From Siphonobacter sp. BAB-5405 (GTDB taxonomy: Bacteria; Bacteroidota; Bacteroidia; Cytophagales; Spirosomataceae): a stretch of DNA of 64,000 bases. The notes below the pieces were generated by a model. The model was not told the DNA's origin, ran no database searches, and saw only the letters and a list, made by a program, of their open reading frames with translations. Below, one piece after another: positions 39,249-40,263 of this stretch; position 1 is the first letter of the stretch, and each line of letters opens with the position of its first letter. The position numbers were made by a program, and so were the translations under genes. The stretch covers positions 124,001-188,000 of the forward strand of contig NZ_NJAG01000036.1 in NCBI RefSeq assembly GCF_002872335.1, read 5' to 3'.

Positions 39249-39272
39249 TAACGTACCCCAAAATCCTGTGTG

Positions 39273-39614
39273 ATGCTCACGAGCGAAGGTTGCCCCAGTA
39301 CGATGTTATCGATCAAAGATGCCCTGGAGGCTCTGGAAGGAAAATGGAAATTGCTGATTTTGTTCGCTTTATCTTCTTCGGGGCCTAAACGCTTTAAACA
39401 GATTTCCAAAGAGGTCGCCGGGATTACCGATAAGACATTATCGAAAGAATTGAAATTGCTCGAATCGAACCAACTCGTAAAACGCGAAGTACACGATACG
39501 TTTCCGCCGACGGTTGAGTACTCGATTACGTCACACGGGCTGTCGCTGGAAAAAGTAATCGCAGAACTGCATTACTGGGGACTGGCCCACCGGAAGCAGA
39601 TTATTGGAAAGTAA
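39273..39614 (+). CDS. HxlR family winged-helix regulator
   Basis: 113 residues from ATG 39273. HxlR motif set: Cys near the N-terminus (SEGCPSTML, a possible redox-sensing Cys), IKDALEALEGKWKLLILFAL, KRFKQISKEVAGITDKTLSKEL, LLESNQLVKREV and YSITSHGLSLEKVIAELHYWG. It represses or activates the divergent DoxX gene; HxlR regulators commonly sense reactive electrophiles through the N-terminal Cys. The operator candidate lies in the 116 bases between the two genes. Confidence 0.94.
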   Translation: MLTSEGCPSTMLSIKDALEALEGKWKLLILFALSSSGPKRFKQISKEVAGITDKTLSKELKLLESNQLVKREVHDTFPPTVEYSITSHGLSLEKVIAELHYWGLAHRKQIIGK

Positions 39615-39764
39615 AGAATGATTCGATTAATGAAAAGGGCTTTGGGTAGCATAGCGACCTACTTTACCGCATAGCCATTACTGCCAGAATTTAAAAAATG
39701 AACCCAAACGGGAATTTTTGAAGGCCTGGGGAAGTTTAGACAGCACGATCTACGTTAAGTCACT

Positions 39765-39811
39765 GGAGGACGACCTCCCCCACGCAGGGAATCGCATTCG
39801 GGACGGCCCGG
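39765..39811 (+). ncRNA. Guanidine-II (mini-ykkC) riboswitch candidate
   Basis: Two GC-rich hairpins with ACGR tetraloops, the defining feature of the guanidine-II class. P1 is GGAGG-ACGA-CCTCC (39765-39778) and P2 is CGGG-ACGG-CCCG (39799-39810), extendable by a T-G pair. A 20-base linker separates them, and P2 ends 23 bases before the ATG of the Gdx/SugE guanidinium exporter. In known examples two ACGR loops each bind guanidinium and the element controls exactly this exporter. The match in loop, spacing and target gene is strong; a covariance-model hit would confirm it. Confidence 0.85.
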
Positions 39812-39833
39812 CTTATTTTAAAAAAGCTAAACC

Positions 39834-40154
39834 ATGGCCTGGATCTATTTGATTTTCGCTGGACTGCTGGAAGTCGTCTGGGCGTACTTCATGAAACAAT
39901 CCGAAGGATTTTCCCGCCTTACCCCCTCAATACTTACGCTCGTAGCCATGCTGGCCAGTTTTGGACTGCTATCCGTAGCCATGCGAACGTTACCCTTAGG
40001 AACCGCTTATTCAATCTGGACGGGAATTGGGGCCGTTGGAGCTTTTCTGGTGGGAATCATTCTGCTGGGTGAAGCAGTGAATTTTACCCGCATCCTGGCC
40101 GCTGTACTGATTATTGCAGGGCTGGTATTGATGAAAGTTTCTTCTTCGCATTAA
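39834..40154 (+). CDS. gdx: Guanidinium exporter of the SMR family (Gdx/SugE)
   Basis: 106 residues with four membrane helices, a dual-topology small multidrug-resistance transporter. The N-terminal AGLLEVVWAYFMKQSEGFSR, with essential Glu13, LPLGTAYSIWTGIGAVGAFL, and the LLGEAVNFTRILAAVLIIAG segment with LVLMKVSS match E. coli SugE/Gdx rather than the drug-exporting EmrE branch (the Gdx-type GLLEVVW helix 1 with W-A-Y following). Guanidinium/H+ antiport is therefore likely, supported by the guanidine-II-like element 23 bases upstream. The old name is sugE. Confidence 0.93.
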   Translation: MAWIYLIFAGLLEVVWAYFMKQSEGFSRLTPSILTLVAMLASFGLLSVAMRTLPLGTAYSIWTGIGAVGAFLVGIILLGEAVNFTRILAAVLIIAGLVLMKVSSSH

Positions 40155-40200: not shown

Positions 40201-40243
40201 AAAAAACAGGCCCATTCCTTGTATAAGAAATGGGCCTGTTTTT
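40201..40243. terminator. Bidirectional rho-independent terminator
   Basis: ACAGGCCCATT pairs with AATGGGCCTGT, with A6 on the left and T5 on the right, 47 bases after the gdx stop and 21 bases after the stop of the T9SS-cargo gene on the opposite strand. It ends both transcripts. Confidence 0.92.
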
Positions 40244-40263
40244 CTGCTGTCAAGGACAGCGTA

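Follow-up and report, generated by a model that had tools for sequence, protein, structure and literature searches.

A predicted guanidine-II riboswitch preceding the guanidinium exporter gene gdx in Siphonobacter sp. BAB-5405

The gdx locus and its two-hairpin leader

The window, i.e., the whole 64,000-nucleotide stretch analysed here, belongs to Siphonobacter sp. BAB-5405 (Bacteroidota; Cytophagales; Spirosomataceae). It contains a gdx (sugE) gene with an element of two tandem hairpins in its leader, and a gene for an HxlR-type regulator lies farther upstream (Table 1). Hairpins P1 (GGAGG-ACGA-CCTCC) and P2 ((T)CGGG-ACGG-CCCG(G)) flank a linker at 39779-39797, and gdx begins 22 nt downstream of the aptamer. 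The strong hairpin and T-run that follow the gene suggest that the gdx message is probably monocistronic; this hairpin is absent from the list of terminator-like sites returned by a pattern scan. The Bacteroidota -7 promoter consensus is TAnnTTTG, to which the window offers a weak candidate, and closer matches (TATCTTTG and TATTTTTG) were seen by eye upstream of P1 in several relatives. A scan of the leader stretch detected no sigma-70 site of the E. coli type. Between the promoter-like motif and P1, several relatives (e.g., L013, L024, and L028) have a hairpin of variable sequence; it was spotted by eye and also appeared in the folds of L028 and L023.

Table 1. Coordinates of the features at the gdx locus, in window positions.
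Feature	Position	Strand	Evidence
HxlR-type regulator gene, upstream of the riboswitch	39270-39614	same as gdx	
AATTTTTG, weak candidate Bacteroidota -7 promoter element	39713-39720	+	sequence; tentative
Guanidine-II riboswitch aptamer	39762-39811	+	full-length RF01068 match, 32.6 bits (gathering score 32)
P1 hairpin, 5 bp, loop ACGA (39770-39773)	39765-39778	+	sequence, RF01068 match, fold -6.6 kcal/mol, covariation
Linker hairpin CCC-ACGCA-GGG	39779-39789	+	fold -2.4 kcal/mol
P2 hairpin, CGGG-ACGG-CCCG plus outer U.G, loop ACGG (39803-39806)	39798-39811	+	sequence, RF01068 match, fold -6.2 kcal/mol, covariation
P3, candidate expression-platform hairpin GGCUU...AAGCU	39810-39828	+	fold -2.1 kcal/mol; putative function
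gdx/sugE, SMR-family guanidinium exporter, 106 aa	39834-40154	+	NCBIfam NF008512, Pfam PF00893, residues
Strong hairpin then T-run, probable transcription terminator after gdx	40204-40245	+	fold -21.7 kcal/mol, sequence

A preliminary description of this DNA had proposed a guanidine-II (mini-ykkC) riboswitch consisting of two short stems with ACGA and ACGG loops. Both stems are present as tandem G+C-rich hairpins capped by ACGR; the linker, which had been given as 20 bases, is actually 19 nt long and falls inside the 7-40 nt range quoted for the class in the text consulted of PMC7544219. The Rfam guanidine-II covariance model, the use of which had been suggested, aligns with the element over its full length (model positions 1-48), exceeding the cut-off by only 0.6 bits, and the outer three P1 pairs of the model correspond to non-standard pairs in the window. 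At gathering thresholds, RF01068 is the sole Rfam match in the window, the guanidine-I, -III, and -IV families giving none, and the 6.49 Mb genome contains no other match to this model. Moreover, the core pattern GGACGRCC-N18-40-GGACGRCC is present a single time in the window and is missing from all of 100 dinucleotide-preserving shuffles. The doubt left by the marginal Rfam score is removed by the recurrence of the two hairpins before most gdx orthologues of the family (see below). Judged by its sequence, the element is thus a guanidine-II (mini-ykkC) riboswitch aptamer preceding gdx/sugE, and motif and gene together point to guanidinium as the probable ligand.

The exporter expected directly downstream was likewise recovered. 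Its product matches NCBIfam NF008512 (SugE) at 127.2 bits (cut-off 126) as well as Pfam PF00893, and contains E13, W16, S42, and W62; E13, S42, and W62 are invariant across 12 aligned proteins. W16, S42, and W62 are described as residues of Gdx/SugE guanidinium exporters in the part of PMC7695847 consulted.

Conservation and distribution of the unit

A Gdx search of 222 Spirosomataceae genomes yielded 46 genes (61-100% identity) from 45 genomes; below this gap, the remaining matches reached 48% or lower, except for a 52-residue fragment at 58% in genome G236. The two-hairpin leader precedes 43 of the 46 orthologues: 31 have an RF01068 match at an E value of 0.001 or lower (27 above the gathering cut-off), and inspection found both hairpins in 12 of the other 15 (10 of these leaders score 20.6-30.1 bits and two are unlisted). 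The aptamer is absent from three orthologues, in genomes G150, G136, and G174 (loci L054, L062, and L066). For comparison, the best 80 of 586 matches were taken, a similarity-biased selection of four Spirosomataceae loci and 76 others; the latter, the 'proteobacterial' comparators, include one Desulfovibrio MAG (Thermodesulfobacteriota). Nine of these 76, which lack P2, and the three aptamer-less family loci were left out of the Shine-Dalgarno counts and all later ones.

P1, the linker hairpin, and P2 have 94.2% of their cells paired in 41 distinct family leaders. The covariation score is 0.146 as compared with 0.104 after shuffling, none of 500 shuffles scoring as high, and the real structure beats all slid versions; the number of further pair types is not unusual (168/500 shuffles as high). 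Changes on both sides affect 5 of 14 pairs, linker hairpin included. In particular, GC-to-AU replacements on both sides occur at two of the five P1 pairs, and the linker hairpin (90.9% of cells paired) shows CG-to-UA on both sides in two leaders. Loops and stems are retained across these leaders while the flanks diverge; the anticipated conservation of ACGR loops and covarying stems before Cytophagales gdx orthologues is therefore borne out, with covariation above shuffles. A CCC-N3-10-GGG motif is found in the linker of 36/43 family leaders and also of 42/67 comparator leaders, so the linker hairpin was rejected as a trait specific to Bacteroidota. Counting any 3-bp hairpin near the linker start gives a modest excess over shuffles in both groups (family, 40/41 versus 31.3; comparators, 58/64 versus 48.3).

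Several leaders depart from the common form. Four of the 12 inspected leaders (L038, L049, L057, and L064) have non-canonical loops. In L038, located on a Runella rosea plasmid (G196:C5), the P2 loop reads ACGC, which falls outside the ACGR consensus, and a related leader in G203 has ACGG. The other three have a five-base P1 loop, AACGR, as do 12 of the 76 comparator loci (Stenotrophomonas and others). In 19 of these 76, a six-base P1 loop, e.g., CCACGT (GAGG-CCACGT-CCTC), replaces ACGR while P2 is normal; its carriers (e.g., L094, L101, and L114) are mostly alphaproteobacteria by record title. In L002 (genome G022), the 66-nt gap between P2 and ATG holds three extra hairpins in tandem that resemble P2 and have the loops AAGA, ATGA, and AAGA. 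They may represent a local expansion of P2, and on their account L002 was left out of the alignment and of the P3 counts. A second gdx copy, L006 (G104:C15), has no intact open reading frame (protein match 14-103 only, 61% identity), and its riboswitch is the highest-scoring of the family at 39.7 bits; the intact gdx copy of the same genome is L033.

RF01068 matches at an E value of 0.001 or lower occur in 30 of the 222 Spirosomataceae genomes (26 of them above the cut-off), 31 matches in total with 27 over the gathering cut-off, and gdx comes next after all 31, one copy being broken. In an order-level sample, at least 21 of 390 genomes have RF01068, every one from Spirosomataceae; in a class-level sample, at least 1 of 395, namely the Siphonobacter genome itself; and in a phylum-level sample, at least 3 of 395, this genome included, so that the element is rare elsewhere in the phylum. 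These distribution counts are lower bounds, as the stricter filters applied to samples of more than 40 genomes drop weak matches. The other two carriers of the phylum sample belong to different families, in which 1 of 23 and at least 3 of 92 genomes, respectively, have RF01068. The four loci from these families (L031, L032, L154, and L155) form a second, distinct guanidine-II/gdx-like lineage, with the P1 5' strand GTARGG and an open reading frame 20-25 nt past the end of the P2 loop match; the leaders of L154 and L155 were inspected by reading only. An SMR-type open reading frame, judged from sequence only, follows all four, and two of their Gdx proteins, compared with that of the window, share 50% and 47% identity with it.

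The class is 'found mostly in Proteobacteria' according to the passages seen of a review (PMC12186494), in agreement with the preliminary description. Mini-ykkC is listed as fairly widely distributed in PMC3766115, where the portion seen makes no statement tying it to Bacteroidota. A search of the literature, which did not extend to Sherlock 2017, Weinberg 2007, or McCown 2017, found no report of guanidine-II in Bacteroidota and returned, for guanidine riboswitches of this phylum, a paper on a guanidine-IV variant, seen in part.

Proposed initiation control without a Shine-Dalgarno sequence

In the models for E. coli and P. aeruginosa, as outlined in the sections consulted of PMC9300104 and PMC9561414, the Shine-Dalgarno sequence is hidden by the linker or by a P0 helix and is exposed by the ligand; the latter source terms the class 'exclusively translational'. 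Bacteroidota, by contrast, are described as naturally lacking Shine-Dalgarno sequences, with secondary structure near the start tuning initiation (PMC6847099, in part), and Bacteroidia ribosomes as failing to recognise them (PMC9976891, in part). No Shine-Dalgarno sequence was found near the gdx start of the window (-0.1 kcal/mol pairing with the anti-Shine-Dalgarno tail). Each distinct segment being counted once, pairing of -4 kcal/mol or lower is found in 5/42 family leaders versus 64/66 comparators. Starts of open reading frames from 424 kb of the same genome show no enrichment either (10/213 at -5 or lower versus 16/213 at a control position), the first ATG of each frame having been used, so that some starts are wrong; the 16S tail of this genome still has CCTCC. 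By its sequence, the window departs from the published platform in which a Shine-Dalgarno sequence is sequestered, and the aptamer assignment is unaffected.

One candidate for the expression platform is P3, which ends 5 nt before AUG. The hairpin shares its first two bases (39810-39811) with the 3' end of P2, and the outer pairs of the two hairpins are therefore mutually exclusive. P3 is weak in the window (shuffle p 0.09), and in the sister genome G001 its closing G-U pair is replaced by G-C. With at least four pairs and an energy no higher than -1 kcal/mol required, P3 passes in 42/65 comparators, in which it often encloses the Shine-Dalgarno sequence (e.g., L118, L110, and L097), and in 24/42 Spirosomataceae leaders (41 of them distinct), but in only four of nine genera: 12/17 leaders of g32, 9/13 of g5, both leaders of the genus of the window, and the single leader of g9, as against 0/9 in the five other genera. 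With the hairpin anchored, the mean energy is -2.76 in 41 distinct family leaders versus -1.78 with 3' parts swapped (best of 60 swap means, -2.32), and -6.14 versus -3.27 in 65 comparators (best swap mean, -3.9), each distinct segment again being counted once. Shuffles are beaten at p 0.05 in 19/41 family leaders and 34/65 comparators, the window not being among them. On these folding predictions, P3 is genuine in some leaders of both groups, whereas the others lack it or have it in undetected form.

The second candidate is a predicted helix between the P2 5' strand, together with the AC of its loop, and gdx codons 1-4. In the absence of ligand, predicted pairing averages 0.54 in 41 family leaders versus 0.14 with other starts, and 0.35 versus 0.11 in 44 comparators, the controls being starts of other open reading frames of the Siphonobacter genome (60 per locus); the observed value is reached by at most 10% of the 60 controls at 24/41 family and 24/44 comparator loci. 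In family leaders, the average cost of locking P2 is about 4 kcal/mol. Swap tests detected no covariation of this helix in the family (matched, -9.37; swapped, -9.24; 23% of permutations as low) or in the comparators (-8.46 versus -8.22; 7% as low). When codons 2-6 were redrawn synonymously, only 3% of 35 family loci and 6% of 65 comparators reached p 0.1 or lower (family mean, -9.16 versus -6.95), and most of the complementarity to codons 1-4 follows from the conserved P2 and protein sequences. When P2 was locked in silico, AUG accessibility barely changed (0.64 free versus 0.63 locked); with P1 and P2 locked, that of positions -20 to -7 moved from 0.45 to 0.48 in the family (up in 22/38, down in 10/38) and from 0.38 to 0.40 in comparators (up in 12/28, down in 9/28). 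Codon 2 ends in C or T in all 43 Spirosomataceae genes counted and in 62/67 comparators; in the family, all 33 Ser codons at this position are TCC or TCT, as compared with 7/15 at Ser-2 of open reading frames of the Siphonobacter genome (Fisher p 1.7e-5, ignoring relatedness). Selection on codon 2 is only suggestive, given the weak result of synonymous redrawing and the lack of covariation in the swap test.

The best explanation, and one that is very probable as a whole, is that the 5' leader of the gdx/sugE messenger contains a guanidine-II ON switch, probably acquired by horizontal transfer, in which locking of P2 would free the start region. Guanidinium would make the P1 and P2 loops kiss (ligand and kissing being taken from the literature) and thereby lock P2, which would then retain the two bases that P3 would need and keep its 5' strand off codons 1-4; the freed start region would allow Gdx to be made and guanidinium to be exported. 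Lacking a Shine-Dalgarno sequence, such a switch would most likely act by opening structure around the start codon. Control would thus be at translation, with P3 and the start-codon helix as the presumed OFF state, and this arrangement of P3 and the start is offered as the best guess. A more specific scenario for Spirosomataceae, namely that a P3 inherited from proteobacteria was kept in several genera while the Shine-Dalgarno motif was lost, and that P3 and the pairing of the P2 5' strand with codons 1-4 close the start, is tentative and stands at somewhat below even chances. Proteobacterial leaders are predicted to have this complementarity too, and the pairing may therefore be an overlooked OFF state of the whole class.

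Other readings of the leader fare less well. The OFF state could instead be a P0 helix, in which the 5' flank (39722-39739) would pair with the 3' flank as far as the start codon (39827-39840). This helix corresponds to the P. aeruginosa model as given in the part seen of PMC9561414, and it appears (5+3+5 bp) when the minimum-energy structure of the window leader, 5' flank included, is predicted. P0 requires transcription to start upstream of 39722, however, and the closest relative, G001, has two differences in paired P0 positions, both of which break pairs and one of which improves P3, so that this helix seems a rather unlikely OFF state. Intrinsic termination at P2 followed by CTTATTTTAA would turn the leader into a transcriptional switch, and the pattern scan does list 39798-39811 as terminator-like. 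Yet the scanned stretch holds two such sites against a shuffle mean of 0.8, the T-rich tail after P2 is missing in many relatives (e.g., CCTAAAAAGG), and a P2 stabilised by ligand would turn the exporter off, which is the wrong sign for detoxification; termination is thus very improbable.

The imported riboswitch might also be a passenger that regulates nothing in a host whose ribosome does not read Shine-Dalgarno sequences, as the lack of enrichment at starts in its own genome and in most family leaders would allow. Against this stand the loops and stems kept through compensatory changes in distinct leaders with diverging flanks, and the absence of the riboswitch from so few orthologues; a passenger is accordingly improbable, if slightly less so than a terminator. 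Finally, a chance or convergent origin of the hairpin pair, to which only the near-cut-off Rfam score would lend colour, has next to no likelihood in view of the core pattern being absent from shuffles, and chance is ruled out by the conservation of both hairpins in orthologous leaders. The preferred reading remains that of an ON switch in which P2, once locked, would release the start of gdx.

Origin of the unit and its relation to known systems

A quick tree was built from 130 SMR proteins. The 45 Spirosomataceae Gdx and the 76 comparators share one side of a branch supported at 98% SH-aLRT; the two other Bacteroidota Gdx are found on the opposite side together with six of the seven family paralogues, and the remaining, long-branched paralogue (L151) falls inside the Gdx side. 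Support is 85-90%, short of the star level of the tree tool, at the forks that set some proteobacterial rows apart from the rest; the alignment comprises 106 columns, many forks are open, and the starred branches alone do not force nesting. One Spirosomataceae unit of gdx and riboswitch sits on a plasmid of Runella rosea (Bacteroidota; Cytophagales; Spirosomataceae). Horizontal transfer is favoured over convergence because Gdx groups with proteobacterial Gdx, the leaders share a common anatomy (CCC-GGG linker), and a plasmid copy exists. Gene and riboswitch probably arrived together from proteobacteria, fork support being moderate and the comparators having been selected for similarity; one transfer or several are both possible. 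The preliminary description had proposed either an extended range or convergence; the extension holds relative to the passages seen of PMC12186494, and convergence is not favoured, since Gdx and leader features are common to Spirosomataceae and proteobacteria.

The riboswitch and gdx of the window are thus an ordinary guanidine-II/gdx unit in an unusual host. The locus shows a gene-plus-riboswitch unit that probably crossed phyla, and it provides a natural experiment on the working of a translational riboswitch that lacks the site it is thought to hide.

The gdx leader of E. coli K-12 has the same layout as that of the window, with an ACGA loop followed by an ACGG loop, a linker inside the 7-40 nt range, and gdx directly downstream. 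It differs in its Shine-Dalgarno sequence (-5.8 kcal/mol versus -0.1 in the window), and the host of the window is a member of Bacteroidota. As in the window, P3 starts at the last two bases of P2 in the proteobacterial leaders of Undibacterium pigrum (L118), a Sphingomonadaceae MAG (L110), and Siccirubricoccus soli (L097); the proteobacterial P3 region holds a strong Shine-Dalgarno sequence, whereas that of Spirosomataceae is mostly without one. Guanidine-I, -III, and -IV riboswitches also control guanidinium exporters; they share this target with the leader described here, which differs from them in matching, among these Rfam families and guanidine-II, the guanidine-II model.
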